The notes under the pieces are model-generated. The model made no database searches, was not told the origin of the DNA, and saw only the letters and a program-made list of their open reading frames with translations. DNA of 64,000 bases from Hyphomicrobium sp. CS1BSMeth3 (GTDB taxonomy: Bacteria; Pseudomonadota; Alphaproteobacteria; Rhizobiales; Hyphomicrobiaceae). The position numbers were made by a program, and so were the translations under genes. This document shows positions 37,678 to 54,555 of the stretch, piece by piece (the stretch's first letter is position 1; each line of letters begins with the position of its first letter). The stretch spans positions 186,001-250,000 of the forward strand of contig NZ_FPEI01000006.1 in the NCBI RefSeq assembly GCF_900117415.1, in the 5' to 3' direction.

Positions 37678-37766
37678 CTCGCGAAGCTCCGTCCCGCCGC
37701 GCGGGGCAGAGCTCGGATGCATTGGATTCGGCGATCTTCGATTGGCTTTTGCTATCGCAACATTGG

Positions 37767-37794
37767 GTGCGCCACCTTGATGGGGGTGGCGCAC
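37767..37794. promoter_or_regulatory. Perfect inverted repeat upstream of fdnG
   Basis: GTGCGCCACC and GGTGGCGCAC form a ten-base perfect inverted repeat around TTGATGGG, ending 55 bases before the fdnG ATG. No T-run follows. It could be an operator or a leader hairpin controlling the formate dehydrogenase operon; the binding factor is unknown. Confidence 0.6.
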
Positions 37795-37849
37795 TGCAGT
37801 CTTCTCCTTGGAAGAACAATAAGTATTTTTCAAAGGAGGTGGCTGAACC

Positions 37850-40800
37850 ATGAACATTGAAGTATCACGCCGAAGGTTCATGCAGCTGGCCGGTGCCGGC
37901 GCCGCAGGAACCGCGATCGGCGCGCTTGGCTTCGCAGAGGCGGAGGCGCAAGTCTCGGCCCACGTGAAGCCCTTCCGGCTCGTCCAGACCAAGGAAGCGC
38001 GCACGACCTGCCCGTATTGCGCAGTGAGCTGCGGAATGCTCGTCTATGCGGCCCCGAGCAAGGCCAGCAGCGGCAAGCTGGAAGTCGTTCACATCGAGGG
38101 CGATGCCGACCATCCGGTCAATCGTGGAACGCTGTGCCCGAAGGGTGCCGCCGCGATCGACTACATTCATTCCGCAACGCGCGTGAAGACGCCCATGTAC
38201 CGCAAGCCCGGTACGGCCAAGTTCGAGCCGTGTACCTGGGACTTCGCCATGGAGCGGATCGCGAAGCTGATGAAGGAGGACCGCGACGCGAACTTCGTCG
38301 AGAAGAACGCGGCCGGCACCACCGTCAACCGCTGGACGACCACGGCATTCCTCTCCGGCAGCTCGGTCACGAATGAGACCGGCTGGGTTACCTACAAGGT
38401 CGCGCGTGGCCTCGGTCTCCTGCAGATCGAAAACCAGGCGAGGATCTGACACGGACCGACGGTGTCCAGTCTGGGCCCGACATTCGGTCGCGGTGCGATG
38501 ACCAACAGTTGGACGGATATCCGTAACACGGATCTCGTCCTCGTCATGGGCGGCAATGCCGCCGAAGCTCACCCCTGCGGATTCAAGTGGGTCACCGAGG
38601 CGAAAGCCGAGCGTGGCGCCAAGCTCATGGTGGTCGATCCGCGCTTCACGCGCTCGGCGGCCGTGGCTGACCACTATGCGCCGATCCGGCCGGGGACCGA
38701 CGTCGCCTTCCTTTCCGGCGTCGTGAACTACCTGCTTAGCAACGACAAGATCCACAAGGAGTACGTCCGCCACTACACGAACGCGGCCTATCTGGTGAAG
38801 GAAGGCTATGCCTTCAACGAAGGCTTCTTCTCCGGGTACGACGAATCGAAGGCGACGTACGACCGCAGCTCCTGGGAGTACGAGATCGGTGCGGACGGCT
38901 ATGCCGTGCGCGACATGACGCTCGAGCACCCACGCTCGGTCTTCCAGCTCATGAAGAAGCATTTCGCGGTCTACACACCCGAGATGGTTTCACGCGTGAG
39001 CGGCACACCGCAGGACAGGTTCCTGAAGGTCTGCGACTGGATCGCCTCGACCGCCAATGGCGAGCGGGCGATGACGATCATGTACGCGCTCGGCTGGACA
39101 CAGCATTCGCACGGTGCCCAGAACATCCGCTCCGCGGCGATGATCCAGCTCCTGTGCGGCAACATCGGCGTTCCCGGTGGTGGCGTGAACGCACTGCGCG
39201 GTCACTCCAACGTCCAGGGCATCACCGATGTCGGCACGCTCACAGCAGCCATTCCCGGCTACCTGAACCTGCCGGCGGAGAACGAGCCGACCCTCGAATC
39301 GCACTTGGGCAAGCGCACGTTCAAGCCGCTCCAGGCCAACCAGACGAGCTACTGGCAGAACTACCGGAAGTTCTATGTGAGCTTCCTGAAGTCGTTCTAC
39401 GGCACCAAGGCGACGCCGGAGAACAACTTCGGCTACGACTGGCTGCCGAAGCTGGACGTCGCCTACGACTGCCTCAGAATGTTCGACCTGATCAATCAGG
39501 GCAAAACGAACGTCCTGATCTGTCAGGGCTTCAACCCGCTCATGGCCATCGCGGACTCGAACAAGAGTGCCGCCGGCCTCGCGAAGCTGAAGCTGCTCGT
39601 CAGCATCGATCCGATCGAGACCGACACGGCGCGCTTCTGGGAGAATCACGGCGAGTTCAACAACGTCGATCCCGCCAAGATTCAAACCGAAGTGTTCATG
39701 CTGCCCGTCACCTCGTTCGCCGAGGAGTCGGGAAGCCTGACCAACTCGAGCCGCTGCATCTCGTGGAAATGGCAGGCGGCGGATCCCTATCATGACTCAC
39801 GCACCGACGTGGTCATCCTGGCGGATCTGTTCAACCGCATCCGCAAGGCCTACGAGACCCAAGGCGGCAAGGGTGCCGAGCCGCTTCTCGCGGTCGACTG
39901 GTCGTACAAGAATCCGGCGGAGCCGAGCGCTGACGAGCTCTTGAAGGAGCTCAACGGCAAGGCGCTGGTGGATCTCAAGGACGCCGGCGGCAAGGTCACG
40001 CGTCAGGCCGGCTCGCAGCTCGCGAGCTTCGGCGAGATGCGCGACGACGGCTCGACCGATGGTGCCATGTGGATCTACACGGGCGTCTACGGCCCTGCGG
40101 GCAATCTCTCGCAGCGTCGCGACAACGCTGATCCATCGGGCCTCGGCGTCTACGGCAACTGGGGCTTCTCGTGGCCCGCCAATCGCCGCATCCAGTACAA
40201 TCGCGCCTCGGCCGATCCGGAAGGCAAGCCGTGGAGCGAGCGCAAGAAGTACATGTTCTGGAACGGCGAGCGCTGGACCGGACCGGATGTGCCGGACTAT
40301 GTGCCGACCATCCCGCCATCCCAGGCAACCGGCCCCTTCATCATGAACCCCGAAGGCGTCTCCCGCCTCTGGGTGCGTGGATTGATGGCGGACGGGCCGT
40401 TCCCCGTGCACTACGAGCCGTTCGAGTCGCCGGTGACGAACCCGGTCTTCCCGAAGCTGAAGGGCAATCCGGCGGCACGCATCTTCCAGCGTGACCGGCC
40501 GTCCTTCGGCGACGCGAAGGAGTTCCCGATCGTCGCCACGACCTACCGCCTCGTCGAGCATTTCCACTACTGGACGAAGGGCGTGCACATGAATGCGGTC
40601 GTGCAGCCCGAGTTCTTCGTGGAGATGTCCGAGCAGCTCGCCGCTGAGAAAGGCATCAAGCATGGCGGCTGGGTGCGCGTGTGGTCCAAGCGCGGATCGG
40701 TCAAGGGCAAGGCCGTGGTGACCAAGCGGCTGAAGCCACTGACGATCGATGGCAGGACGGTTCACACCGTCGGCCTGCCGCTCAACTTCGGCTTCATCGG

Positions 40801-40924
40801 CGTGGCCCGCAAGGCCAATCCGATCAACGGGCTGACGCCACCGGTCGGTGACGCCAACTCGCAGACGCCGGAGTACAAGGCGTTTCTCGTCAACGTCGAG
40901 CCCATCGTCGGGCCGGTGGCATAG
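37850..40924 (+). CDS. fdnG: Formate dehydrogenase-N alpha subunit, selenocysteine-containing
   Basis: A 1024-residue molybdenum enzyme subunit read through an in-frame TGA at 38447-38449 as Sec200. A Tat signal ([10 protein letters not shown]) leads to the periplasm. The first [4Fe-4S] cluster has Cys54, Cys57, Cys61 and Cys96. The UGA sits in the sequence NQARI-Sec-HGPTV, where E. coli FdnG and FdoG have Sec196, and both flanks align without a gap, so this is not a frameshift. The subunit oxidises formate to CO2 and passes electrons to FdnH. AAAGGAGG lies upstream of the ATG. Reading the UGA needs selA, selB, selC and selD, none of which lies in this window. Confidence 0.96.
38447..38480 (+). 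promoter_or_regulatory. UGA selenocysteine codon with SECIS-like hairpin
   Basis: Fourteen bases behind the UGA, GUCC (38464-38467) pairs with GGGC (38473-38476) around the loop AGUCU. The same loop sequence crowns the SECIS hairpin in E. coli fdnG. It is the expected binding site for SelB. Confidence 0.85.
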
Positions 40925-40938
40925 GGGAGAGCACAGAC

Positions 40939-41877
40939 ATGTTTCCAGCAATCCCCAATCCCACCACGGACAAGTCCAACGCCCGGTTCGGCGAGAAGGA
41001 CATGATCCGCCGCTCGGCCTCCACGATCACGCCGCCCGCCAAGCGGCAGACCGAGGTCGCCAAGCTGATCGACGTGTCGAAGTGCATCGGCTGCAAGGCG
41101 TGCCAGACGGCGTGCCTCGAGTGGAACCAGCTCACGGAGGAAGTCGGCGTCAATGTGGGTGTCTACGACAACCCGCATGACCTGACGGCCAATAGCTGGA
41201 CGCTGATGCGCTACACCGAGTACGAGAACCCGGAGAGCGGCAATCTCGAGTGGCTGATCCGCAAGGACGGCTGCATGCACTGCGAGGATCCGGGCTGCCT
41301 CAAGGCGTGTCCCTCACCGGGCGCGATCGTGCAGTACTCCAACGGCATCGTCGATTTCGTGAAGGAGAACTGCATCGGCTGCGGGTACTGTATCAAGGGC
41401 TGTCCCTTCAACATTCCCCGCATCTCGCGCGCCGACCACAAGGCCTACAAGTGCACGCTCTGCTCGGATCGTGTGGCTGTCGGCCAGGGCCCGGCGTGCC
41501 AGAAAGCCTGCCCGACTCAGGCCATCGTCTTCGGCACCAAGGATGAGATGAAGGCCTGGGCAGCAAAGCGCATCGCCGACCTGAAGTCGCGCGGCTTTGC
41601 CAAAGCGGGACTTTACGACCCGCCGGGCGTGCAGGGCACGCACGTCATGTACGTGCTCCATCATGCCGACAAGCCGCAGCTCTATGCCGGTCTCGCCGAG
41701 AACCCGAGGATCAGTCCGATCGTCGAGGCCTGGAAGGGTGTCGGCAAATACGCAGGACTGGCGCTGATCGGCCTCACGGCGGCGGCCGGCGTCATCCATC
41801 ACTTGCTGCAGGGCCCCAACCGCGTGACGTCCGAAGACGAGGAGAACGCGGAGAAGCTGGCAGGAGGCAAGTCGTGA
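40939..41877 (+). CDS. fdnH: Formate dehydrogenase-N beta subunit (iron-sulfur)
   Basis: A 312-residue ferredoxin-like subunit with four cysteine clusters: [35 protein letters not shown] and CTLCSDR...CQKAC, enough for four [4Fe-4S] centres. A C-terminal membrane helix ([20 protein letters not shown]) anchors it to the inner membrane, as in E. coli FdnH. It relays electrons from FdnG to the cytochrome subunit. Its stop overlaps the GTG of fdnI. Confidence 0.95.
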
Positions 41878-42569
41878 GCACACATGACGATGGCAGCGGC
41901 GCACACATGCGGGTGCGCCGCTATTCGGGAAGCGCCCGCATCAATCACTGGATCGTGGCGATCAGCTTCGTTCTGCTCTTGCTGAGCGGGCTGTCGCTCT
42001 TCCATCCAAGCCTCTTCTGGTTGGCCGGTCTCTTCGGCGGAGGTACGACCGTCCGCTGGCTCCACCCCTGGATCGGGGTGGTGCTGGTGGTCGGGTTCAT
42101 CGGCCTGTTCCTGCGCTTTTTCGCGCAGAACCTGCCCGAGCGCACGGACTGGGTCTGGCTCGCACGCATCCGCCATGTCCTCAAGGGCGATGACGAATAT
42201 CTGCCGGAAGTCGGCAAGTACAATGCCGGGCAGAAGTTCGTCTTCTGGTCGCAGTCCATCCTGGTGATCGTACTTTTCGTCACCGGTCTCGGGCTGTGGG
42301 CGCCTGGGCTCGCCTATGTCGAGGGGCTCTTCGGCTTCAAGGCAACCATCGATCAGCTCCGCATGGCGGCATTGATCCATGCCGGCGCCGCGGTGCTCGC
42401 GATCACGATCTGGATCGTTCACGTTTACGCAGCGATCTGGGTCCGCGGTACGATCAGTGCCATGACGCGCGGCTTCGTCACCGGCGGCTGGGGCTGGCGT
42501 CATCACCGCAAGTGGTTGCGCAAGGAAGTCGGCCACGACGAACGCTCACGCGTCACGCCGGCCGAGTAG
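41874..42569 (+). CDS. fdnI: Formate dehydrogenase-N gamma subunit (cytochrome b)
   Basis: A 231-residue membrane protein with four hydrophobic segments. Haem-ligand histidines are likely in [23 protein letters not shown] and the last helix (IVHVYAAIW). It passes electrons to the quinone pool, and with a periplasmic FdnG this generates proton-motive force. The start is a GTG that overlaps the fdnH stop by four bases. Confidence 0.93.
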
Positions 42570-42602
42570 TTCGGCGCACGCTGCGGCAGGAGGTGCCTAT
42601 TC

Positions 42603-43520
42603 ATGCCGAGCGGGCGTCGCATCGTCGGCGACATGACCAACATCGGGGAGCAGGCGAAGCCACCGTTCGCCGTGCTCCCCGATCCATCGTCGCTCTTTCT
42701 CGCACGCGCCGAGCGTTTGAGCGCGCTGGCGCCTGACCACGAGCTCGGCCCTTACCTCAGCTTTCTCGCGAAGCTGGCGACGGCGCAGCACGAGGTCGCG
42801 TCCGATCTGCCGCCGGCCTTGCTGCCGCCGGACGATCGCATGGCCCGGTCGCTCGCGCATGGCGTGCCGCCGCTGTCACGCGCGACGATCGAACCCGATG
42901 ACATCATGCTGGCCGCCGTCGAGCGCCTGGTCGCGCGGTTCGGCGCGGTCACGCTTCCTTCTGAAACGGCAACGGCCATCGCGGCTTTGCGCACGGGATT
43001 GCGCTCCGACGGCCATCGCATCGTCGGGGCGGCCCTCAAGGAGGCGTCGCCCGCTCAGGATCTGGCCCAACGCGTCCTGATCCTTGCGGGTCTGCAGGTG
43101 CACTTCTCGCGCCTTGCCGCCATGCTGGATGCAAACGCGCTGAAGCCTGTCGCCAATGCGGCCTGTCCAACGTGCGGCAGTCCGCCGATGGCGAGCACGG
43201 TCGTCGGCTGGCCGCGCGCCTACAACACGCGCTACTGCACCTGCGGCCTCTGCGGGACCATGTGGAACGTGATCCGCGTCACGTGCGTGCTCTGCGGGGC
43301 GACGGACGGCGTGAGCTTCCGCGGCTTCGAGGGCCAGCCGGACACCGTCAAGGCCGAGACCTGCGACACCTGCCGCGGCTACGTGAAGATCGTCTACCAG
43401 GTGAGCAACACCGCTCTCGAGCCGCTCTGCGACGACGTCGCGAGCCTCGGCCTGGACATGATGCTGGCCGAGGAAGGCTGGAAGCGCGGCGGCGAGAACC
43501 CGTTCCTGCTCGGCTACTGA
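42603..43520 (+). CDS. fdhE: Formate dehydrogenase accessory protein FdhE
   Basis: A 305-residue protein needed for assembly of respiratory formate dehydrogenase. The C-terminal half has the rubredoxin-like cysteine pairs CPTCG, CTCGLC, CVLCG and CDTC. The N-terminal half is helical. AGGAGG lies ahead of the ATG at 42603. It is the last intact gene of the fdn operon; foreign-looking sequence starts at the base after its stop. fdhD is not seen in the window. Confidence 0.93.
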   Translation: MPSGRRIVGDMTNIGEQAKPPFAVLPDPSSLFLARAERLSALAPDHELGPYLSFLAKLATAQHEVASDLPPALLPPDDRMARSLAHGVPPLSRATIEPDDIMLAAVERLVARFGAVTLPSETATAIAALRTGLRSDGHRIVGAALKEASPAQDLAQRVLILAGLQVHFSRLAAMLDANALKPVANAACPTCGSPPMASTVVGWPRAYNTRYCTCGLCGTMWNVIRVTCVLCGATDGVSFRGFEGQPDTVKAETCDTCRGYVKIVYQVSNTALEPLCDDVASLGLDMMLAEEGWKRGGENPFLLGY

Positions 43521-43910
43521 CCGGCAGCCGGTAGTGGTAAAACCACCATCTTCAATTTGGTGCAGCGCTTCTGGCAATTATCAAGTGGCGAGATCTCGAT
43601 TGATGGCCAGCGTATCGCCGACGTTCCGCTCGCCTCACTTCGCAGACAGGTGGCCCTGGCGAGTCAGGACGTCTTTCTCTTCGAGGGGACCGTCAGAGAG
43701 AACCTCGTAGGTGCTCTGAAGGATCGGTCGGAGAACGACATTCTGGCCGCTGCGCGGCTGCGCGCGCCGACGTATTCATCAGGAGGCTGCCGCGGGGGGC
43801 TACAATACACAGGTCGGCGACTCGGGGGACGACCGTCGGGTGGCCAGCGACAGAGCTTGTCGATCGCTCGGGTATGCCTGAACATGGTTGGCAACATGAC
43901 ATCTCGGTAG
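43521..43910 (+). pseudogene. Decayed fragment of an exporter-type ABC ATPase
   Basis: Directly behind the fdhE stop, and in its frame, the sequence reads PAAGSGKTTIFNLVQRFW, the inside of a Walker A motif, followed by a normal Q-loop region (VALASQDVFLFEGTVREN). After ARL the frame shifts at least twice: RRLPRG, then GYNTQVGDSGDD, then SGGQRQSLSIARV are each found in different frames, and Walker B is missing. It is the remnant of an MsbA-like export ATPase cut at its 5' end. Confidence 0.85.
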
Positions 43911-43929
43911 CCCCAGAGAGCAGGCTCTA

Positions 43930-45168
43930 ATGTCGAAGCGCCCCGCAGTGATAATCACCGGCCTGCCGTGGATACGCAGCGGCACCGGAAAAGTAATGCA
44001 GGCTCAGGTCGAGTATTTCAAATCGTTGGGGTGGGTCACGATATTCGTGGCCTGCCCGTTTAAGCGGACTGATGCCTATTCGAGGAAGATCTGGAAGAGG
44101 TTCGAGGAAGAGAAGGTGGATCTCGATGCGGACTTCACCGCAATCGCCTCGTTTTGGTGGCGCGTCTCGAAGCCCAGCATCACGCGTAGGCTTTGGGGCC
44201 GCTGGCATGGACAGAATGCCATGCACTGGGCTCTCGAACCCGGCAGAGCCGCTAGCATTCCACACACTCTTATGAGTGTCGCCAAAGAGTTTGATATCAG
44301 GTTGGTTCTAGCCAACCATGTCTACACATTTCCGGTGGCGCAAAAGTTGCGTACGCGATGGTCGTCCAAAGCGCCTATTGCACTCGTGACGCACGATATC
44401 CAGAGCCACGTGCTGCTCGACAACGTGGAGATCAATCCCTTCACCGGACAATTGGACGGGAGTGACGTATTGCTTGATACCGAGTTGCGAACACTCGCTG
44501 GTGCGGACTATCTTATTCATGTATCGAGCGACGATGAGGAGTTTTTTCGCTCCTGTTTGCCAAGCATACCCCATAAGCTTGTTCTGCCCACGATTGATAG
44601 CAGCTTTAAAGGGAGCGATCATGGCGAGGAGGCTCCCTTCTCCGATTTTATTTTCGTCGGTGCCGGGCACATTGCAAATTATCACGCTCTGCAGTGGCTT
44701 CTCAATGATGTCTGGCCGTTAATCGATCCCGACCTGAGAATAAAGATTGTGGGACCGGTGAAGGACCTCATGAGTAAACGGAACCCAACGCTCTACGCTA
44801 CTTTCCAAGAGTTCTTCACTGGCAGCGTTCCCGATGTTTCGCAATGCTATCGTGGATCGCGCTGTGTACTGGCCCCAATGGTCACCGGGCGGGGTGTCTC
44901 GATCAAGACGATAGAGGCGTGTGCATTTGGACTACCTCTTGTAGGAACCTCTTTCGCATACAGAGGTCTGCCTAAGTTGGAGGTCGAGGCGGCAGGTCTA
45001 CGCATGTACGACGAGCCAGAGGCGTTTGCCGAGGCCGCTCGACGGGCGGTTGACACGCCGGCGCCGTTCCAAGAGGCGAGTAAGCGACTATACCGTCGGC
45101 TTTTCAGCGGAGAAGCATACGCAAGCTCCATGAGCCAAGTGCTTGAGCATCTCGGCCTCTCAGACTAA
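43930..45168 (+). CDS. Glycosyltransferase, GT4-like
   Basis: A 412-residue GT-B glycosyltransferase. The C-terminal donor-binding half is recognisable by FIFVGAGHIANYHALQWLL, by VLAPMVTGRGVSIKTIEACAFG and by the switch to PLVGTSFAYRG. The N-terminal half begins VIITGLPWIRSGTGKV. No signal or membrane segment is present, so it is probably cytoplasmic and acts on a lipid-linked glycan. Base composition is visibly poorer in GC than in the flanking genes. It is the first intact gene of the glycan island. Confidence 0.83.
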   Translation: MSKRPAVIITGLPWIRSGTGKVMQAQVEYFKSLGWVTIFVACPFKRTDAYSRKIWKRFEEEKVDLDADFTAIASFWWRVSKPSITRRLWGRWHGQNAMHWALEPGRAASIPHTLMSVAKEFDIRLVLANHVYTFPVAQKLRTRWSSKAPIALVTHDIQSHVLLDNVEINPFTGQLDGSDVLLDTELRTLAGADYLIHVSSDDEEFFRSCLPSIPHKLVLPTIDSSFKGSDHGEEAPFSDFIFVGAGHIANYHALQWLLNDVWPLIDPDLRIKIVGPVKDLMSKRNPTLYATFQEFFTGSVPDVSQCYRGSRCVLAPMVTGRGVSIKTIEACAFGLPLVGTSFAYRGLPKLEVEAAGLRMYDEPEAFAEAARRAVDTPAPFQEASKRLYRRLFSGEAYASSMSQVLEHLGLSD

Positions 45169-45549
45169 GTGGAACGATGAAAAACCTGGCCCTCGCAATG
45201 TCCAATTGGAGGTCCGTACTTCGTGGATGACGAAATAGCAACATATGCGGAACTGCTTCTTCAGCAGTCTCGCGACGCGCTCTCTGCGCGGTACGTTAAT
45301 GCGGGTAGCCGGACATGGCTTGAAGCAGCAGACGTTCGCTCCCTCACGGTGCAGCCTCTGATCCAAGTTCATCCAAGATTGCGAGCCCTGAAGGATCATG
45401 CGGCGGTCAAAGGGCACAGGACTTTTCCATATGTGTGATGGCGGCGCCATCGACCTTTCCCATGCAAGCGGCTATATGGGTTGCTTGTGCTCGATGCACG
45501 CGGAACTCCATCGAATGCAGGGTTGAGCATACCGGGAGATTGGATAGCC
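45169..45549 (+). other. Orphan stretch inside the island, possible gene remnant
   Basis: A short frame from the GTG at 45223 to 45438 encodes 71 residues (DDEIATYAELLLQQSRDAL ... KGHRTFPYV) that I cannot place in a family. Open stretches continue in other frames to about 45530. The lack of a good start and the frame breaks suggest a remnant rather than a gene. The last bases (GGGAG at about 45534) serve as ribosome-binding site for gmhA. Confidence 0.35.
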
Positions 45550-46146
45550 GTGCTGGCAGAATCTACAACCAGGGCAGGGCTCATCTCGGCGTACTTCGCC
45601 GAAACAGAAACCCTTATAAAGCAGCTCACAACACTGAGTGCGCAAATTGAGCGTGCGGCCGATGCTTGGATCAACGCACTTCGGAATGGCAGGAAGATTA
45701 TTTTCTGTGGAAACGGCGGATCTGCAGCGGACGCACAGCATCTGGCGGCCGAGCTGATGGGGCGCTTTCTCTTGGACCGCGAGCCGATGCCCGCACTCTC
45801 GCTCACGGTGGACACGTCGGCTTTAACCGCAATCGGCAACGACTACGGCTATGAGAACGTGTTTTCGCGCCAGCTACGCGGCATCGGTAAAAAGGGCGAC
45901 GTGTTGGTAGGTCTGTCGACGAGCGGCAATAGCCCGAACGTCTTGCGCGCTTTCGAGACAGCACGAGCGATGGGCATCCTAACAATCGGCTTCACCGGTG
46001 AGCGTGGCGGCAAAATGGAGAAGCTGTCGGATATTCTCCTCGCCGTGCCTCACAAGCAGACGAATCACATACAGGAAGCGCACATCGTTCTTGGACACCT
46101 CGTTTGCGGATTGGTTGAGGCCACTCTTTGCTCTCCCAAGCTCTAG
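45550..46146 (+). CDS. gmhA: D-sedoheptulose 7-phosphate isomerase
   Basis: A 198-residue SIS-domain isomerase making D-glycero-D-manno-heptose 7-phosphate from sedoheptulose 7-phosphate. GmhA signatures are FCGNGGSAADAQHLAAEL, TALGND-like TAIGNDYGYENVF, GLSTSGNSPNVL and the C-terminal IQEAHIVLGHLVC with catalytic His. The GTG at 45550 is preferred: GGGAG lies about 12 bases upstream and the length then matches the family; earlier TTG or GTG starts would add 21-23 residues. It overlaps the next gene by 19 bases. Confidence 0.9.
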   Translation: MLAESTTRAGLISAYFAETETLIKQLTTLSAQIERAADAWINALRNGRKIIFCGNGGSAADAQHLAAELMGRFLLDREPMPALSLTVDTSALTAIGNDYGYENVFSRQLRGIGKKGDVLVGLSTSGNSPNVLRAFETARAMGILTIGFTGERGGKMEKLSDILLAVPHKQTNHIQEAHIVLGHLVCGLVEATLCSPKL

Positions 46147-47375
46147 TCCTCTGTGGCGGTCTAGGAACCCGGTTGGGAGAACTCACCGCGTCGACGCCTA
46201 AGCCGATGCTGCCCGTAGCCGGCCGCCCTTTTCTGGAACACTTGCTTCAAGAAATTGCCCGCTACGGCGTGACGCATATCGTGCTGCTTGCCGGCCGTTT
46301 TGGTGAGCAGATTGCGGACTTATACGACGGTCGTCGCCTGTTTGGCGCTCACATCGAGGTTTTGGTGGAGCGGGAGCCGTTGGGGACAGCTGGAGCTCTG
46401 CGTTTTGCAGAGGAGAGGCTGGCGTCTGAATTCCTGCTGCTCAACGGCGACTCCTGGATCGACGCCGATCTCGTTCACTTTGCCCTTCAATGGCGCACGG
46501 CAAAGGCGGTTCAGCCAACGCTTGCAGCTCAGATGTTGCTGCAGTCAGTTCCGGACGTCGGACGGTATGGCAGCGTGATGGTTGACAACGGTCGTGTCAC
46601 GGCCTTTCGAGAGAAGGCTCGCGACTTGGCCGGCTGTTCCGGCCATATCAATGCCGGCGTCTATCTCCTGTCGAAGGAAGTCATCGGCTTAATTCCCGGA
46701 GGCGTCGCAAGCTCGCTGGAAGCCGATATCTTGCCGCTCCTGATCTCGAGCAGGCAGGTCGTTGCCGTCGCCGCGCCGGAGAACACCTATTTCATTGACA
46801 TAGGCGTGCCAGAATCTCTTGCCCGAGCGCAAGAAGCATTGCAGCGAGCGCGCACGCGGGCGGCAGTATTTTTCGATAGGGACGGGACGCTCAATCGTGA
46901 CTTTGGCTACACCCATCGGGTTGAAGACCTAGCGTGGATGCAGGACGCCCGCGAAGCGATAGCTTTTGCCAATGCGGCGGGCTTTTTGGTCTTCGTCGTC
47001 ACCAACCAGGCAGGCGTAGCACGCGGACTCTATGACGAAAGGGCGATTGCGGCTTTCCACGGAGCTATGCAGGAGCAGCTGTTCGATTTTGGCGCCCATA
47101 TTGATGCCATCGAATGGTGTCCCCATCACATTGACGGCCTCGTTGAGGCGTATCGCAAGCAGTGCGGATGTCGCAAACCTCTTCCCGGCATGCTCAACAA
47201 TCTGCTTGGCGCTTGGCCGGCTGATCGAACTCGCAGCCTCCTTATCGGCGACGCCGAGACGGACATGCAGGCGGCCGGCGCGGCCGGTATCCGGGCCTTT
47301 CGATATGAAGGTGGTTCGTTACTGAAACTATTGCAGAAGGCGATTTCAACATTCGAGGAAGGACATGTGGATTAG
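46128..47375 (+). CDS. Bifunctional HddC-GmhB: heptose-1-phosphate guanylyltransferase fused to heptose bisphosphate phosphatase
   Basis: A 415-residue fusion. Residues 1-240 are a sugar nucleotidyltransferase (LCGGLGTRLGELTASTPKPM, GDSWIDADL) of the HddC type. Residues 243-405 are a HAD phosphatase of the GmhB type with Asp250 and Asp252 in FDRDGTLNRD, VTNQAGVARG, and zinc-binding Cys/His in CPHH and CGCRKP. The two activities flank each other in the pathway: the phosphatase makes heptose 1-phosphate, which the other domain joins to GMP. The start is a TTG with GAGG upstream, inside the gmhA end. GMP rather than AMP is inferred from the HddA neighbour. Confidence 0.85.
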   Translation: MLSQALVLCGGLGTRLGELTASTPKPMLPVAGRPFLEHLLQEIARYGVTHIVLLAGRFGEQIADLYDGRRLFGAHIEVLVEREPLGTAGALRFAEERLASEFLLLNGDSWIDADLVHFALQWRTAKAVQPTLAAQMLLQSVPDVGRYGSVMVDNGRVTAFREKARDLAGCSGHINAGVYLLSKEVIGLIPGGVASSLEADILPLLISSRQVVAVAAPENTYFIDIGVPESLARAQEALQRARTRAAVFFDRDGTLNRDFGYTHRVEDLAWMQDAREAIAFANAAGFLVFVVTNQAGVARGLYDERAIAAFHGAMQEQLFDFGAHIDAIEWCPHHIDGLVEAYRKQCGCRKPLPGMLNNLLGAWPADRTRSLLIGDAETDMQAAGAAGIRAFRYEGGSLLKLLQKAISTFEEGHVD

Positions 47376-48354
47376 CAGAACGCCGTTGAGGGCCAGCTTT
47401 CTTGGAGGCGGCACGGACTATCCTTCTTATTTTCACTCGAATCCCGGAGCTGTGCTCGGTGGGACGATCGACAAGTATGTCTATATTCAGGCCCTGCCGA
47501 TGTCGCCCATCGCGGAACAGAAATTCCGTGTCACCTATCGTACGACTGAAAGCGTCGATCGGATTGAGGACATCCGGCATCCGGTCATTCGCGAATCCCT
47601 GAGGTCCTATGATTGGACCTCGCCGCTCAACATCGCCACCATGTCGGATCTCCCCGGTAGTACGGGACTCGGGAGTTCTTCCGCCTTCACTGTGGGCTTC
47701 ATCAACCTGCTTCACCGTATGCGCGGGATCGAGCTCACGCGCTACGAGCTCGCGCGTCAGGCTATCCATATGGAGCAGGACATCCTCAAGGAGAATGGCG
47801 GCGCCCAAGATCAGATCCATGCCGCCTTCGGCGGCCTGGCACGTTACGAGTTCGCCGGTGATACTTTCACTATCGAACCGCTGAGGTTGGCCACGAATCG
47901 TCTTAGTTTCCTGAACGCATCGCTGCTGCTCGTCTACACGGGCGAGCAGCGCAGCGCCTCGGTGGTTCTGGAAAACCAGGAAAAACGCAACAAATCCGGC
48001 GCCAACGAGAGCTATCTGCGCGAAATGTATGAGATGACGCGTGTTGGCGCCTCCATTCTGGAGGCTGATGGTGATGATCGTGCCGCGATCGTGCGCTTTG
48101 CCGAGCTGCTCGATCATGGATGGAAATTGAAGCGGAAGCTTGGAACGGCAGTGTCAAATACGACGATCGATAATCTCCACGGCAAAGAGTTGGGGGCATG
48201 GGGGGGAAAATTGCTGGGCGCTGGAGGTGGTGGGTTTGTTCTGTTCCTTGCCGATCCGGAGGTGCACGGGGTCTTCATCGAGCGCTTTGGGGCTGAGAGG
48301 GTTATTCCGGTTTCGCTGACCAACGGTGGGTCTACGGTGTCGAACATTCTGTAG
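47365..48354 (+). CDS. hddA: D-glycero-alpha-D-manno-heptose 7-phosphate kinase
   Basis: A 329-residue GHMP kinase. It opens with ISRTPLRASFLGGGTDYP, has the ATP motif LPGSTGLGSSSAF (near residues 98-110) and the C-terminal GGKLLGAGGGGFVLF. It phosphorylates heptose 7-phosphate at C1 with alpha configuration, the branch leading to GDP-heptose rather than the ADP-heptose of core LPS. GAGGAAGG lies before the ATG, which overlaps the fusion gene by 11 bases. With gmhA and the fusion it makes a complete pathway. Confidence 0.9.
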   Translation: MWISRTPLRASFLGGGTDYPSYFHSNPGAVLGGTIDKYVYIQALPMSPIAEQKFRVTYRTTESVDRIEDIRHPVIRESLRSYDWTSPLNIATMSDLPGSTGLGSSSAFTVGFINLLHRMRGIELTRYELARQAIHMEQDILKENGGAQDQIHAAFGGLARYEFAGDTFTIEPLRLATNRLSFLNASLLLVYTGEQRSASVVLENQEKRNKSGANESYLREMYEMTRVGASILEADGDDRAAIVRFAELLDHGWKLKRKLGTAVSNTTIDNLHGKELGAWGGKLLGAGGGGFVLFLADPEVHGVFIERFGAERVIPVSLTNGGSTVSNIL

Positions 48355-48471
48355 ACAGCAATTGAAGTCGCCGCCCGGGTATTGCGAGTGCGCCGCGAAT
48401 ACGGAACGACGCCTTCGTGTGGGAGGTCTGAAGGTGATCGCCGTCGATCCGGCCAGTGATGGAGACAGCGC

Positions 48472-50154
48472 ATGACGGCACGTGAACGGCGCATTATCTT
48501 GGTTCCCCCCGCGACACCCGGCAGTAAGGGGGACGAGGGGATGGTCCGCGGCGCTCTAGAACTCTTCCGGTCGAGCGTTGTGGTTATCCTCAATGCCTCT
48601 CCGGAATGCCTCTGGATTGAAAAGCTGGGGCTCGCATCCGACGAGCGTCAACGCGTTTCCGATGCGGCAGGGCCGATTCGCGACTTCGCACAATACTTGG
48701 AGGCGAATGATCTTGTATTTTTCTTGGGTGCCGATGTCATCGACGGCACATGCGGTCTCGAACCTAGCTTGGAGCGGATTGAATTGATGGCCAGCGCGCT
48801 GGCACGCGGGGCGCCGGTGTATGTCTCTTGTTCGTTCCGGTCGGTTGTCGCATCGGAAATTTTGGAGCCGCTGCGTCTTATGTCCGATGCAATTTTCCTG
48901 CTGCGTGACAATCACTCATTGGGCAATTTCGAAAGACAGACCGGGCTCGCTGGCCGCTATTTGCCCGACATTTCGTTCTTTTGTCCCAGCAGCAGCGGGG
49001 CGCCGATTGAAACCATCATCGCCGATATCGCTAAGGCGCGGAAAAGCTACGAGCCTGTCATCGGTGTGAACTTCGCCGAGCATTCCTTTCGCTCGTTCTT
49101 TGAGGTGCATTCTGACTTGAATCGAAAGGTATTCGTCGGCTCCATCCTAAGAGAATTGTCTGCATCACATCCAAATGCTTTCTACGTGCTTCTATCTAAC
49201 GACGAGCGGCGTTGGCACAATCATCCATCCGATGATGATTATCAGCAGATCGCGCAGGAATGGCTTATCGAGAACATCGGAGAAGACCGGGCACTCACAG
49301 TCTGCCCCTCCATCGCGTACGGTGGAAACATCACGGTGCTGAGTGCCGTCGATTTCTTGATTACGGGACGAATGCACCTATCGTTAGCGGCATTTCGTGC
49401 TGGCACCCTGCCGCTGGTTATGATGGCGCAGGGTAAGGGCTATAGTTCTGTGGATAAGATGCGCGGGGCCTTCGAGAAGCATGCCGGTTCAGCTGCCGGG
49501 GTAATTTCGAAGGTCGGACAACTTGGTGCTGCCAGCGCCCAGTTTTTTGCCAACCGGCAAGCGCTCAAGGATCGGGTATTGGTTATCGACGCGGAATTGC
49601 GAACGGCACGTGCGCAGGACGCCAAAGCGCTTCTGGAGGAAATGCACGGTCGGGCGCTTCCCGGCTTTGGACAGGGTGGCCAATTGGGTACGGCGCCGAT
49701 GTCTGCATTGGCCGGGCTGATCCGACGTTCCGACCAACTCGTCAAAGAGCAAGCGGTCATCCAGACACTTCGCCACCAGTTTGCTGGAGTGCAAAGTCGT
49801 GAACTGAACGCCGCAAGGCTTGGCGATGAGAGCAAACATTTTTTGGCGAATAACGACGCTACGGTCACTCCTGCGCAGCAGCGCATCGCCAACATGGCTG
49901 TCCGAGGGGATCGATTGGCCGAGGAATTGCGTCGAGCCTACGCCAATCCTTGGCGTCCTCTCAGATTCGCCCTCCGACGCTTTGTCCTACGCAGTTTGCT
50001 CCTCCTCGAGGGTGTCATCCTCTCGAAACGGAGATCGGAAATGCTTCGCCGCTCGATAGCCAGGTACAAGCTCGAGCACGTTCGGCATGACTGGCTCGTG
50101 GCTCGCGGGTTTGATGCGGGCAACGGGGATAAACACGAGGTTTTGCCAAAGTGA
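48472..50154 (+). CDS. Polysaccharide pyruvyl transferase family protein
   Basis: A 560-residue protein. The first 350 residues fit the pyruvyltransferase fold: VPPATPGSKGDEGMVRGA, NDLVFFLGADVIDG, RDNHS, and the hallmark GRMHLSLAAFRAGTLPLVM. Such enzymes add ketal pyruvate from PEP to sugars of exopolysaccharide or S-layer glycan. The last 200 residues are a helical extension ending in a basic stretch (RRFVLRSLLLLEGVILSKRR), possibly for membrane contact. The following gene starts within its stop (GTGA). Confidence 0.8.
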   Translation: MTARERRIILVPPATPGSKGDEGMVRGALELFRSSVVVILNASPECLWIEKLGLASDERQRVSDAAGPIRDFAQYLEANDLVFFLGADVIDGTCGLEPSLERIELMASALARGAPVYVSCSFRSVVASEILEPLRLMSDAIFLLRDNHSLGNFERQTGLAGRYLPDISFFCPSSSGAPIETIIADIAKARKSYEPVIGVNFAEHSFRSFFEVHSDLNRKVFVGSILRELSASHPNAFYVLLSNDERRWHNHPSDDDYQQIAQEWLIENIGEDRALTVCPSIAYGGNITVLSAVDFLITGRMHLSLAAFRAGTLPLVMMAQGKGYSSVDKMRGAFEKHAGSAAGVISKVGQLGAASAQFFANRQALKDRVLVIDAELRTARAQDAKALLEEMHGRALPGFGQGGQLGTAPMSALAGLIRRSDQLVKEQAVIQTLRHQFAGVQSRELNAARLGDESKHFLANNDATVTPAQQRIANMAVRGDRLAEELRRAYANPWRPLRFALRRFVLRSLLLLEGVILSKRRSEMLRRSIARYKLEHVRHDWLVARGFDAGNGDKHEVLPK

Positions 50155-53066
50155 AGATTACTCTGGGACAACGTTTACACGTCTTCTTGCTGCGATTGCT
50201 TGTGAAGTTGGTTAGGCCATTTTCGAAACGGACTGCCGCACGTTTTACGCGCTCCGCTGACAAGCGCGATCCGAAGCAACTGGCACTGAGGCTGAAAGAA
50301 AAGCAAGAGCTGGAAAGGGCCCTTGCACTGGGCCTTCCGGGCGGTGCAGAGCCTCTTGTTGATCCAGCTCGGGTGCGGCGAATCCTTGTTGTGGACGATC
50401 GAATGCCGCAGCAGGACGCTTCCGCGCGCGAGCGGGCGACGTTGGGGATCATTACGGATCTGTGTGCAATTGGCTTCGACGTTGTTTTCTGCCCAACCAA
50501 TCTGAGCGATGCAGAGCCCGTTCGCCGCGATATTGAGGCGTTCGGCGCGACGGTGATTGGCGCCACGAGCGGTCATGTGGACGCCGGCGCCTATCTACGC
50601 GCCGAGGGGGCGAAATTCGGCGCATTCTACCTGGTCGGTCTCGAAGTCGCGGAAGCGTTGATGCCTGAAGCGCGAACAGCGGCTCCGGATGCTCCCATCG
50701 TCTTTCACAACCCCGATCTGGTGGCGTCGTGCGAGGGGCGCGGGACGAGCAAGGCAGGAGCACCTGCTGCTGCCGAAAATCGCCGCGCAAGAGAGAGTGC
50801 GCTTATGAATGCCGCCGATCATGTGGTTCTGGTGAACCCGGCGGAGTATCCTTTCCCGGAAAAAAGCGTCGATGGTCTCAAGATATCGCATTTGCGATCT
50901 CTCAGTGGTTCAGGCAGTGCGAACGTATCTGAGACGGTGCGTCGGTCCGAATTGCTGAGAGCCCTCGATCGGGCAAAAATACTGCCGCTTGATCTCTATA
51001 TTGAAAGTTGCCGCACAACCGATCCTGTCGTCTTTCCTACATACGAGAGAGATCGCACGATCGATGTCTCCATCATTATGCAGGTCGGCAATGATCAGGC
51101 CCTTGCCGACAGTTGCTTGCGCTCCGTGCGAGTGGCCGCTTGCGGTACAGGTATTTGCTACGAGGTCCTGCTGGTAGACGAGAGCACTGGCACCGAAGAA
51201 TCTACGGAGGCCCTGGGCTTTCCGAGATCCGAGACGGCAGCAGCCGATGATAGCCCCGATGAACTGAGGCATTGGAACGCAGCAGTTGCTCGGGCGCGGG
51301 GGCGGTACCTGCTCTTCCTCAGGAGCGATACGATCGTCTTGCCGAACTGGCTGCGTCCTCTGGTTCAAGTCATGGACGACGACCGGCGCGTCGCAATCGT
51401 TGGATCGAAAAGTCTCGATCAAAACGGCGCGATCGAGGAAGCTGGCGGCGTGCTGTATTCAGACGGTTCTGCCGTGAAAATTGGGCAGGGTCGTAGGCGG
51501 CGCTCGACATTCTATTCGCTCGTTCGGGAGGTCGACTACACATCTGGTTCGTCGATGCTAGTGCGCCGTGACTTCTGGCGGGAGGCCGAAGGGTTCGACA
51601 ATCGTTTCGGTCGGTCAGATTATAGGGATGCGGATCTAGCAATGACCGCGCGGGCGCGGGGGTATCACGTTGTTTGCCAACCGATGTCCGAAGTTGTGCT
51701 GGCGAAGGCTGACCAACGCGCGAAGAAGGAAGGGGATCAGTCGGCGCCCCTTGCTGGGCAAGCCCGCGATGAGTTCTTTCAAAAGTGGCAAGGCTCTCTG
51801 GCCAAGGGTTATATGGAGAGCGGGACTGTGCCGGAGATCGCAATCGCGCGTGCCGAGCGGAAAGTCCCTGTCGGCGCAGCGGCCCGTCGGGCGTCGGGTA
51901 AGCTGAATGTACTTTACTTCAGCCCATTTCCCTCGCATCCCGACAACCACGGCAATCAAGCTACAATTCAAGCGTTTGGCCGGCGCTTCCGCGAAATGGG
52001 GCACCAAGTTCATTTCGCCTTGCTTCAAAGCCGGCTTTATGACGAGAACGCCGTCGCTTTGATGCAAAATGCCTGGGACAGCCTGACCATTATTCCGAAC
52101 GATCTTCGGCTTTGGTCCAATGGTACGGATATTCCCTTTGACGCCTGGTATGAGGAGGGAATTGGTGAGCGTATTCGCTTGCTCTGCGCCAAGTACGACA
52201 TTGATCTCGTTTTCTGCTCGTACGTCTTTCAATCGAAGCTTTTGGACTATGTCCCGGAACACGTGCTTAAGGTCATAGATACGCACGACAAGATGGGGGG
52301 GCGATATGAGATGCTTCGCAAAAACGGGCAGCCCACTGAATTCTTTTCGTGCACTCCTGATGAGGAAGGTGCATATCTGCGCCGCGCCGATATCGTAGTG
52401 GCCCGACGCGCCGAAGAAGCTGAATACTTCGACGCCGTGACCGGTCGTGCATCCGCGATCGTTATTCCGCATGTCGAGGAGCCTAGGCCTCTCGATCGGG
52501 AATTTACTGATCTAGCGAATATCGGACTAGTGGCGAGTGCCAATCAAATCAATCTGGCCATTGTGCTGCAATTTCTGCAAGCGGTCGAAAGACGCACCGA
52601 AGCCGGCCATCCGCCGTTTTATGTACATATTGCGGGACAGGTGCGTGACATGATCCGGGCACTGCCCTCGGCCAAGGCGGAGATGTTCATGAAGCCCTGG
52701 GTGAAACTACTGGGTTTCGTTCCAGACATAGGCGAATTTTATAGTAGCGTCGACCTTGTAGTTTCTCCAGTTACAATGGGAACGGGCATTAATGTGAAAA
52801 CTGTTCAGGCCATGGCCTACGGTATGCCGCTTCTGGCTACGGCCTGGGGTAGCAAGGGCATCGAGACAGAAGAGCCGATGCATAACCATCAGGATCTCGA
52901 CACATTGGTCGATGGCCTTTTCTGTTTGGCTAAGGATCCAAATCGGCTTTCCGCACTCGCTGAGGTCAGTCGTCAGCGCTACCGGGCCTTCTACGAGGAC
53001 AGCAATCGCGCGATGGAGGGGATGTTTTCAGCAGCAAGAGGGCGTGAGGAAACGTCACTTGCGTAG
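50151..53066 (+). CDS. Three-domain glycosyltransferase (GT4-like half, GT2, GT4)
   Basis: A 971-residue protein. Residues 80-270 resemble a GT-B N-terminal half-domain (RILVVDDRMPQQDASARER). Residues 300-555 are a GT2 domain: DVSIIMQVGND, ARGRYLLFLRSDTIVLPNWL as the DxD-like site, and FGRSDYRDADLAMTARARGY. Residues 582-965 are a GT4 domain starting LNVLYFSPFPSHPDNHGN, with VVSPVTMGTGINVKTVQAMA and a switch to PLLATAWGSKG. It may add two different sugars in sequence. The start is a GTG overlapping the previous stop. Confidence 0.82.
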   Translation: MKITLGQRLHVFLLRLLVKLVRPFSKRTAARFTRSADKRDPKQLALRLKEKQELERALALGLPGGAEPLVDPARVRRILVVDDRMPQQDASARERATLGIITDLCAIGFDVVFCPTNLSDAEPVRRDIEAFGATVIGATSGHVDAGAYLRAEGAKFGAFYLVGLEVAEALMPEARTAAPDAPIVFHNPDLVASCEGRGTSKAGAPAAAENRRARESALMNAADHVVLVNPAEYPFPEKSVDGLKISHLRSLSGSGSANVSETVRRSELLRALDRAKILPLDLYIESCRTTDPVVFPTYERDRTIDVSIIMQVGNDQALADSCLRSVRVAACGTGICYEVLLVDESTGTEESTEALGFPRSETAAADDSPDELRHWNAAVARARGRYLLFLRSDTIVLPNWLRPLVQVMDDDRRVAIVGSKSLDQNGAIEEAGGVLYSDGSAVKIGQGRRRRSTFYSLVREVDYTSGSSMLVRRDFWREAEGFDNRFGRSDYRDADLAMTARARGYHVVCQPMSEVVLAKADQRAKKEGDQSAPLAGQARDEFFQKWQGSLAKGYMESGTVPEIAIARAERKVPVGAAARRASGKLNVLYFSPFPSHPDNHGNQATIQAFGRRFREMGHQVHFALLQSRLYDENAVALMQNAWDSLTIIPNDLRLWSNGTDIPFDAWYEEGIGERIRLLCAKYDIDLVFCSYVFQSKLLDYVPEHVLKVIDTHDKMGGRYEMLRKNGQPTEFFSCTPDEEGAYLRRADIVVARRAEEAEYFDAVTGRASAIVIPHVEEPRPLDREFTDLANIGLVASANQINLAIVLQFLQAVERRTEAGHPPFYVHIAGQVRDMIRALPSAKAEMFMKPWVKLLGFVPDIGEFYSSVDLVVSPVTMGTGINVKTVQAMAYGMPLLATAWGSKGIETEEPMHNHQDLDTLVDGLFCLAKDPNRLSALAEVSRQRYRAFYEDSNRAMEGMFSAARGREETSLA

Positions 53067-53139
53067 GTTGCGCTCTCGCCCGCCTGGGTAAATATGAGTA
53101 ACCAATGCGCGGTGAACAAAAGCAAGGGGGATCAAAACA

Positions 53140-54003
53140 ATGGCTAACTTGCTCCGATGGATGCGCCGGACTTCTGGAAGCCCCGGCACTACGGCGCCGA
53201 TTTCCGAGGATGTGCAGCCCCCTGCTGAGTATCCCGATGTCTCTGCGGCAATCAGCGCAATTACTACCAAAGAGTATCTTGAAATGTCTGCACGCTTCTT
53301 CGGCGCAGGGACGCATCGAGACCTAAGAAATGTTAAGCTCGCTTCGATCTATTTGCGCGACGATGAATTTTTCTCCCGCTGCCTCGAGGTGTTGCAGCAA
53401 GTAGAATCTGAAAAGATACAGAAATTGATCAATGATCAGGCGGCAAAGAGAGTCGGGGGCTCTTTTGCCGAGTTTGGCATCTTTCAGGGGGCTTGGATTG
53501 AACGCCTCTTTCACATGACGGAGAGTGCGGGCCTAAGCGACCGGCATATCTATGGATTTGATAGCTTTAAAGGACTGTCCAAGCCGCACGAAACTTTTGA
53601 TGTGGCATTCTGGAAGGAGGGGATGTATGCGGCGTCGCGTGCCGACGTGGAAAAAAATCTGAAAGTCGCCGAACGGCCGAGGATCAAGCTGATTGAAGGT
53701 TTCTTTGACGAGTCGCTGGAGCGCGACGATGCCAAAACCGTTGGCAAGATCGCCTTTGCTCGTATCGACTGCGATATCTATGAACCGGCCAAGCGATGCC
53801 TTGAGTTTCTGTCATCGCGTCTGGAACATGGCGCCATTCTCGTGTTCGATGATTGGACGCATGACTACTCGGTTGGCGAGGGACGAGCATTTGCTGAGTG
53901 GGTCGTCACAGTTCCGCACTTGAGGTTTAAGTTTATTTTTCTCGGACCGTGGGATCATTTGCACTTGCGAGTACTGCATCGGGATCAGGACGACATTTTC
54001 TAG
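53140..54003 (+). CDS. TylF/MycF-family O-methyltransferase
   Basis: A 287-residue SAM-dependent methyltransferase with the TylF pattern: AEFGIFQGAWIERLF as SAM loop, IYGFDSFKGL, FARIDCDIYEP with metal-binding Asp, and ILVFDDWTHD. TylF and MycF methylate sugar hydroxyls of macrolides; relatives in glycan clusters cap or decorate surface sugars. AAGGGGG lies ahead of the ATG. It is the last intact gene of the island. Confidence 0.85.
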   Translation: MANLLRWMRRTSGSPGTTAPISEDVQPPAEYPDVSAAISAITTKEYLEMSARFFGAGTHRDLRNVKLASIYLRDDEFFSRCLEVLQQVESEKIQKLINDQAAKRVGGSFAEFGIFQGAWIERLFHMTESAGLSDRHIYGFDSFKGLSKPHETFDVAFWKEGMYAASRADVEKNLKVAERPRIKLIEGFFDESLERDDAKTVGKIAFARIDCDIYEPAKRCLEFLSSRLEHGAILVFDDWTHDYSVGEGRAFAEWVVTVPHLRFKFIFLGPWDHLHLRVLHRDQDDIF

Positions 54004-54420
54004 AGCGGCCTCCGCTGAATGATTGCTGCGATCGCGATCCTGCTCCTCAGCCCGCATCTGTTCGAACACCTAAGCGCGCTTTGCAAAGTCTTGATCGATG
54101 ATTTCCCGATAGTGTTGGTCATAGATGCGCCGCAACGCACTTGGCATCGAGCGCTGATCGCACAGCGGTCTCCTTGGAAGCCGATACATCGCGACCGAGG
54201 CGATGCGCCTCGAATTGTTCGGCTTTTCCTTCGCCTTGTGGCGGATGAGACGATCGGCTTACCTGCGATCGCTGGTCCGCAGCGAAAAGGTGACCTCAGG
54301 TCTTGCGGAAGATATCGCGGATGTCTTTAGGGACCGGTGCGCGCAGGCAGTAGACGCTGCCGCGCCCGGTGAGCCAGCGATGTTTTGCCCACCGTCGCCA
54401 TGCCCCCAAGTGCAACAGTA
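54004..54420 (-). pseudogene. Decayed tyrosine recombinase (phage/island integrase), N-terminal part
   Basis: Read on the minus strand from about 54420, successive frames give HRWLTGRGSVYCLRAPVPKD then IRDIFRKT, after one extra base EVTFSLRTSDRR, a stop codon, ADRLIRHKAKEK, after a lost base AEQFEAHRLG, and further on ALRRIYDQHYREIIDQDF and VFEQMRAEEQDRDR. Together these follow the N-terminal part of integrases that begin with a VPKDLR...SLRT module. At least three frameshifts and two stops make it dead; the catalytic domain is absent. It lies 60 bases from the 3' end of tRNA-Asn, where such an integrase would act. Confidence 0.75.
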
Positions 54421-54480
54421 GGGTTAGCGAAGGCCCTGGTTTGCGTATTATTTATAGATTTCAGGGGCTTGGGCTGGTTC

Positions 54481-54555
54481 TGGCTCCGCGGGTAGGATTC
54501 GAACCTACAACCAACCGGTTAACAGCCGGTTGCTCTACCGTTGAGCTACCGCGGA
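54481..54555 (-). tRNA. tRNA-Asn (anticodon GUU)
   Basis: Read on the minus strand: acceptor TCCGCGG pairs with CCGCGGA, the D-arm has AGCTCAACGGTAGAGC, the anticodon stem ACCGG/CCGGT encloses CTGTTAA with GTT, and the T-arm has GGTTCGAATCC. The CCA end is encoded (54481-54483). Its 3' end faces the glycan island. Confidence 0.95.

Follow-up and report, generated by a model that had tools for sequence, protein, structure and literature searches.

Our analysis of 64,000 nucleotides of the genome of Hyphomicrobium sp. CS1BSMeth3 (contig NZ_FPEI01000006.1, positions 186,001 to 250,000; this whole stretch is hereafter called the window, and positions are given in its numbering) identified a block of glycan genes with low G+C content beside an asparagine tRNA gene (tRNA-Asn). 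The block is very probably an acquired island, mosaic in origin and by now eroded, at a tRNA-Asn integration hotspot. An initial annotation had likewise proposed an acquired glycan island at tRNA-Asn, and both the composition of the block and the comparison with sister genomes support this proposal. Features of tRNA-borne islands are present: the composition of the block is unlike that of its host, it adjoins a tRNA gene at whose 3' end the homology to sister genomes stops, and it is absent from close relatives at the DNA level. The features discussed below are collected in Table 1.

Composition of the block

The G+C content over 43521-54420 is 0.566. When 1-kb windows were moved in steps of 250 bases, the 40 windows inside the block reached at most 0.593 and the 205 outside fell no lower than 0.610, with zero overlap. 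G+C at third codon positions (GC3) separates the same DNA gene by gene, with values of 0.583-0.673 in all seven intact block genes and of 0.820-0.933 in all 15 flanking genes; the latter were chosen by hand, automatic gene picking having been misled by antisense shadow open reading frames (ORFs) in G+C-rich DNA. The lower G+C content from 43521 to about 54420 and the weaker codon bias described in the initial annotation were thus both recovered, while its third sign, a larger share of rare start codons, was recovered in part. TTG or GTG is the listed start in three of the seven block ORFs, but the TTG of hddC is no mark of foreignness, because four of the six Ancylobacter loci shown share this TTG together with the sequence around it (the fifth has GTG, the sixth a TTG in other sequence), and rare starts were rejected as a sign of foreign origin for this gene. 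All seven intact genes lie on the plus strand and are predicted to serve glycan building, again as first described, although some of the family scores lie below the respective cut-offs. A search for a near DNA match to the block among plasmid records found none.

tRNA-Asn as an integration site in the genus

The window lies on contig C2 of a genome of 6.0 Mb. Among solved structures its RpoA (15740-16765) matches 7ye1, a Caulobacter RNA polymerase, best by far (575 bits, against 322 for the runner-up), which makes an alphaproteobacterial host probable. We compared the window with four genomes of the same genus (G001-G004, of which G001 is 87% complete and fragmented) and with 103 genomes of the same family, its own included. 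On the right-hand side of tRNA-Asn, G002, G003 and G004 align with the window at 78-87% identity, and in all three the match stops at the 3' end of the tRNA gene. The next shared gene at the left is a metE-like gene, on whose side the match to G003 reaches 37671. Its distance from tRNA-Asn is 0.5 kb in G003 but about 36.6 kb in G004 and about 68 kb in G002. Between these two borders the window and the three sister genomes show no mutual match of at least 100 bp, except for a 3.1-kb piece that is 89-92% identical between G002 and G004. The 18 kb nearest the tRNA encode a glycosyltransferase, a sulfatase, a sulfatase-modifying enzyme, a histidine kinase and a ParA-like protein, among others, in G002 (nine proteins scanned), and transport, dehydrogenase, peptidase and other functions in G004 (ten proteins scanned). 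The G+C content of the G002 and G004 stretches is 0.62-0.63. PF00589 had one match in the G002 stretch, 39 kb from the tRNA, and no 13-base words of the tRNA were found outside the tRNA itself in the examined stretches of G002, G003 and G004.

In G001 the 3' end of tRNA-Asn is found twice, once in the whole gene on contig C11 and once on contig C12, as an exact repeat of 50 bp that holds 48 of the 75 tRNA bases (L153 7952-8001 and L154 3743-3792). The two copies probably form a pair of attachment sites that is divided between two contigs. To the right of the C12 copy lies a stretch of 53% G+C with a GT2 glycosyltransferase gene, and an ORF with a PF00589 match follows 7 kb on. Because homology gives way to unlike DNA at the 3' end of the tRNA in the sister genomes, and because G001 carries this repeat, tRNA-Asn is, judged from sequence comparison, an attachment site in this genus. 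The comparison of tRNA-Asn flanks in sister genomes, which had been suggested as a check on the island, therefore speaks in its favour.

The DNA of the block itself was present in none of the four sister genomes (DNA search, 40 candidates scored per genome; no protein search directed at all four was made). The search yielded relatives of single genes only: an exporter and a glycosyltransferase in G004, located elsewhere in the genome, and exporter relatives in G003 as well as in the own genome. The same block at the same place throughout the genus, with matching composition, is hence not what these genomes show.

The integrase remnant

Some 65 bases separate the 3' end of tRNA-Asn from an integrase remnant on the minus strand, whose similarity to a homologue begins near 54415 and runs through two frames. 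One frame matches positions 4-26 of the 60-position DUF6538 model (E 6e-4, 19.8 bits) and the other positions 25-50 (E 1.3e-4, 22 bits). Since the two frames match consecutive model positions, we regard them as one DUF6538 domain cut by a frame change near 54300. The initial annotation had placed fragments of a tyrosine recombinase 60 bases from the tRNA, which agrees well in position; as to the family, both DUF6538 matches are singly below the Pfam cut-off of 27 bits, and the assignment draws its support from the way they follow one another and from a homologue beside tRNA-Asn in G105, a genome of another genus. This homologue passes the DUF6538 cut-off, starts 71 bases from tRNA-Asn and is 63% identical to the remnant over 38 residues in one frame and 36% over about 100 columns in the other. 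The remnant found matches in two of the 103 family genomes, its own and G105. The tRNA-Asn pattern was present in 83 of the 103, and 30 of the flanks were searched for this integrase only; it matched in the window's own genome alone, the place in G105 not being among the 30. A literature search on DUF6538 gave no listed paper naming the domain. We take DUF6538 to be the N-terminal part of tyrosine integrases, and on this ground call the remnant a tyrosine recombinase.

The remnant has no catalytic domain, and excision of the block by its own integrase is therefore unlikely. A copy of the tRNA 3' end to the left of the island had also been suggested as a check, but neither exact tRNA-Asn words of 11-14 bases over 37000-54470 nor a pattern search of the window gave a left copy. 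As this far-end repeat was not found, we class the island as eroded, not as complete.

In G105 the DUF6538 N-terminus continues, without a change of frame, into the last part of an EAL domain (L076 934-1896). As this ORF contains unread bases, it may reflect either decay or a join made in assembly.

Genes of the block and their relatives

By the relationships of its genes the block has at least two sources. One is seen at its left end, where the remnant of an ABC exporter is followed by a glycosyltransferase gene of the GT4 kind. The same order, exporter then GT4, is found in G004 (contig C8, L145), where the exporter is intact (586 amino acids), unlike the piece of 119 residues in the window. 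This piece starts at Walker A, six bases after the stop codon of fdhE, corresponds to residues 378-496 of the intact relative and is therefore truncated on both sides. Within 30 kb around the G004 pair there was no match to any other block protein, apart from one weak glycosyltransferase cross-match. The gap of 312 bases between the GT4 gene and gmhA (45168-45481) is possibly a decayed gene; its six frames matched no compared locus, and a frame read by hand had no Pfam match.

The second source is indicated by the operon gmhA-hddC/gmhB-hddA, which is closest to operons of Ancylobacter. For gmhA, hddA and the gmhB half of the fusion these families are the best NCBIfam match, all below the equivalog cut-offs, and the best match of the nucleotidyltransferase half in the PDB is a protein of the 6-deoxy-manno-heptose pathway. 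The listed start of gmhA may be too early, as its homologues mostly align from residue 24 or later, with one aligning from residue 6. The GmhA, HddA, GmhB and HddC activities of the GDP-heptose pathway, as outlined in PMC10680097, are all putatively encoded in the block, which may make GDP-heptose. Relative to that outline the block differs in having HddC and GmhB as one fused protein, and GmhB inside the cluster.

A scan with the fusion protein of one genome per species, 84,980 in all, yielded 15 loci, bearing in mind that such a single-protein scan finds close relatives only. Eight of these belong to Ancylobacter (55-71% identity), one to an Afipia metagenome-assembled genome (MAG; 59%), one to a Rhodobacter MAG (56%), and five are more distant. 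Among genomes of the class, the fusion was found in 17 of 385, the own genome included, at E 1e-50 or better, the others being at most 51% identical. In a tree of 25 HddC-GmhB rows the window falls in a clade of 11 rows together with the eight Ancylobacter loci and the Afipia and Rhodobacter MAGs (support 99/99), nearest to five Ancylobacter loci (L130-L134; 81/89); the placement of long rows elsewhere in the tree is unsure. The order gmhA-hddC/gmhB-hddA on one strand is kept in six of the 15 related loci (L130-L134 and L138), and hddA is 80-81% identical to that of L130-L134. In L132-L134 the likeness extends to a gene for a giant glycosyltransferase that follows hddA, with the same gene order and 68-81% protein identity for the three heptose genes. 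A literature search on heptose glycans of Ancylobacter returned nothing to the point, as far as the listed titles and abstract openings go.

The giant protein of Ancylobacter corresponds to two genes of the block. Downstream of hddA, L132-L134 each have a single open frame, about 1790 codons long from stop to stop; in A. defluvii (L133 12355-17592) this gives 1745 amino acids from the first ATG. According to alignment, with Pfam domains read on L133 only, it consists of a pyruvyl transferase-like part, a first glycosyltransferase unit with GT4, a GT2 and a second GT4. The block has in its place proteins of 560 and 971 amino acids, whose genes overlap by four bases. The first of these matches Pfam PF04230 with 19.8 bits, below the cut-off of 25.3. 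Compared with all three giants, the first unit of the 971-residue protein is missing its GT4 domain, a stretch of some 160-175 residues whose expected place is near residues 246-258. As half a glycosyltransferase unit is unlikely to work, this stretch was presumably lost in the block and not gained in Ancylobacter. The frames of L130 and L131 are shorter and differently arranged, which indicates that this giant family rearranges. Within a sample of 397 genomes of the order, the 971-residue protein (E 1e-60) and the TylF-type protein (E 1e-30) were each found in the own genome alone. Among sequence records the former had 98 matches, none over more than 80% of its length and with at most 34% identity among the 20 matches listed, and the latter had 27, the best among the eight listed being 43% identical over 57% of the length.

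Formate dehydrogenase operon and left boundary

The initial annotation had put the left end of the island at the truncated exporter gene. The truncation is real; the stretch that varies within the genus, however, starts at 37678 and not at 43521, and takes in an operon for a selenoprotein formate dehydrogenase. The truncated exporter is thus a scar inside the variable stretch, not its end. A selenocysteine insertion sequence (SECIS) element was found at 38444-38502 (80.1 bits), where the two reading frames of the large subunit meet, and the UGA there is probably read as selenocysteine. The match of the operon to G002, G003 and G004 begins at about 37738-37748 and ends with the fdhE stop (43520); its DNA identity of about 86-90% (76-82% in fdhE) resembles that of core genes, and the GC3 of the operon, 0.82-0.87, is also core-like. 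Its flanks in the four genomes, read over 0.8-7.6 kb on the left and 2-6.5 kb on the right, show no between-genome match of at least 100 bp. We found no clean empty site for the operon, the flanks of the G002 copy mapping to different contigs of G004. Copies lie at 37738-43520 in the window, at L066 7564-13449, at L067 5044-10888 and in L068 and L069; in G003 the operon is split over two contigs. Two further, more distant copies are present in the genome. In G004 an ORF that resembles, from inspection of its sequence only, a transposase of the insertion sequence type is located some 3 kb left of the operon.

The junction between operon and exporter was probably made after the exporter was present, since the exporter is without its first 377 residues. 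A more speculative and on balance unlikely extension is that the operon behaves as a cassette, running from promoter to stop, that changes its address between species of the genus and that one such landing cut the exporter of the newly acquired glycan island.

Table 1. Features of the variable stretch and of the glycan block (window positions)
Feature	Position	Strand	Basis or remark
Whole stretch differing between sister genomes	37678..54480		metE-like gene stop (37677) to tRNA-Asn 3' end
Selenoprotein formate dehydrogenase operon, promoter to fdhE stop	37738..43520	+	G+C close to the core value; differently placed in G002, G003 and G004
Low-G+C glycan block	43521..54420		G+C profile, GC3
ABC exporter remnant, MsbA-like, part of nucleotide-binding domain only	43527..43883	+	Alignment with relative
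Glycosyltransferase, GT4 kind	43930..45168	+	73% identical to gene next to intact exporter, G004 contig C8
gmhA, sedoheptulose-7-phosphate isomerase	45481..46146	+	NCBIfam best match; listed start possibly too early
hddC-gmhB fusion: sugar-1-phosphate nucleotidyltransferase (taken as HddC) and heptose bisphosphate phosphatase	46128..47375	+	
hddA, heptose-7-phosphate kinase (GHMP family)	47365..48354	+	NCBIfam best match
Polysaccharide pyruvyl transferase-like protein, 560 amino acids	48472..50154	+	Matches first third of giant Ancylobacter protein
971-residue glycosyltransferase: N-terminal half of first unit, then GT2, then GT4	50151..53066	+	
TylF-type O-methyltransferase	53140..54003	+	
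Integrase N-terminal remnant, stops and frame change near 54300	54019..54418	-	DUF6538 matches, G105 homologue
tRNA-Asn (GTT), integration site, intact	54481..54555	-	tRNA search, sister comparison

Origin of the block and alternative explanations

The following course of events is the most likely explanation of these observations. tRNA-Asn serves as a recurrent integration site in the genus, and in this species a mobile element with a tyrosine integrase of the DUF6538 type would have inserted at its 3' end, where a block of foreign sugar genes is now found. Later losses would have removed the greater part of the integrase, the left attachment copy (if there was one), the two ends of the exporter and half a glycosyltransferase unit, leaving the block no longer self-mobile, and the formate dehydrogenase operon would have come to lie against the interior of the exporter gene. 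The arrival of the block probably postdates the divergence from the four sister species, yet there has been time for pieces to be lost. An old and now immobile island, as it was called initially, is accordingly apt as regards erosion and immobility, while its age is relative.

Several observations weigh against this account or limit it. As no exact tRNA copy of at least 11 bases stands at the left, the original element cannot be delimited. The integrase remnant cannot be linked to the glycan genes, and PF00589 had no match in the G003 and G004 stretches. The nucleotidyltransferase half scores higher in NCBIfam as mannose-1-phosphate guanylyltransferase (163 bits) than as HddC (114 bits), and because of this ambiguity and the scores below equivalog cut-offs the names of the heptose genes lean also on gene order and on the completeness of the pathway. 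The related operons are not uniform, with gmhA on the other strand in three of the eight Ancylobacter loci (L135, L136 and L139) and not found in the Afipia locus (L137). Present-day Ancylobacter was rejected as the immediate donor, the measured loci being too G+C-rich: hddC has a GC3 of 0.63 in the window, compared with 0.77-0.88 in three Ancylobacter loci. The Afipia MAG matches the block in this respect (0.64) but is less similar in sequence.

A different delivery is also conceivable: the glycan genes may have come by recombination, homologous or illegitimate, at a tRNA whose integrase remnant is the scar of an earlier, unrelated event. The mosaic sources and the missing paired attachment copy would fit, as would G105, which also has an integrase N-terminus without catalytic domain by tRNA-Asn. 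We consider this possible, if rather unlikely, because the remnant adjoins the block and because in G001 the tRNA repeat lies beside a low-G+C stretch with a glycosyltransferase gene; that the element of the integrase remnant brought the block is itself inferred. That operon and block arrived together, as one island of 16.8 kb, is suggested by the fact that they jointly fill a space that is 0.5 kb in G003, but the core-like GC3 and identity of the operon, its other neighbours in three sisters and its junction, apparently made later, with the interior of a gene make a joint arrival improbable. Least probable by far is a native block lost by the sister species. The tidy run of genes on one strand could be read in this way, yet the composition is foreign, the DNA is absent from all four sisters, single-gene relatives aside, the 971-residue and TylF-type proteins are confined to one genome of the order sample, and HddC-GmhB groups with Ancylobacter, Afipia and the Rhodobacter MAG.

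Comparison with known islands and implications

An acquired and eroded island at an asparagine tRNA is a known kind of system, and our findings open no new mechanism. PMC4891358 reports asparagine tRNA genes as hotspots in Klebsiella pneumoniae, for example for GIE492 and others. The Hyphomicrobium site resembles these in that tRNA-Asn hosts different islands with different cargo and that a probable integrase sequence stands with the island; it differs in that only a remnant of this integrase persists, a left copy was looked for in vain, the block should be unable to excise, and the cargo consists of putative heptose-glycan genes. The formate dehydrogenase operon stands out as a side finding, its neighbours being different in each of the four genomes whose flanks were read. 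For the genus, the comparison shows tRNA-Asn being used as an integration site in four sister genomes, and the block illustrates how an island erodes. Beyond the genus, the data indicate that a set of GDP-heptose and glycosyltransferase genes has moved between lineages.

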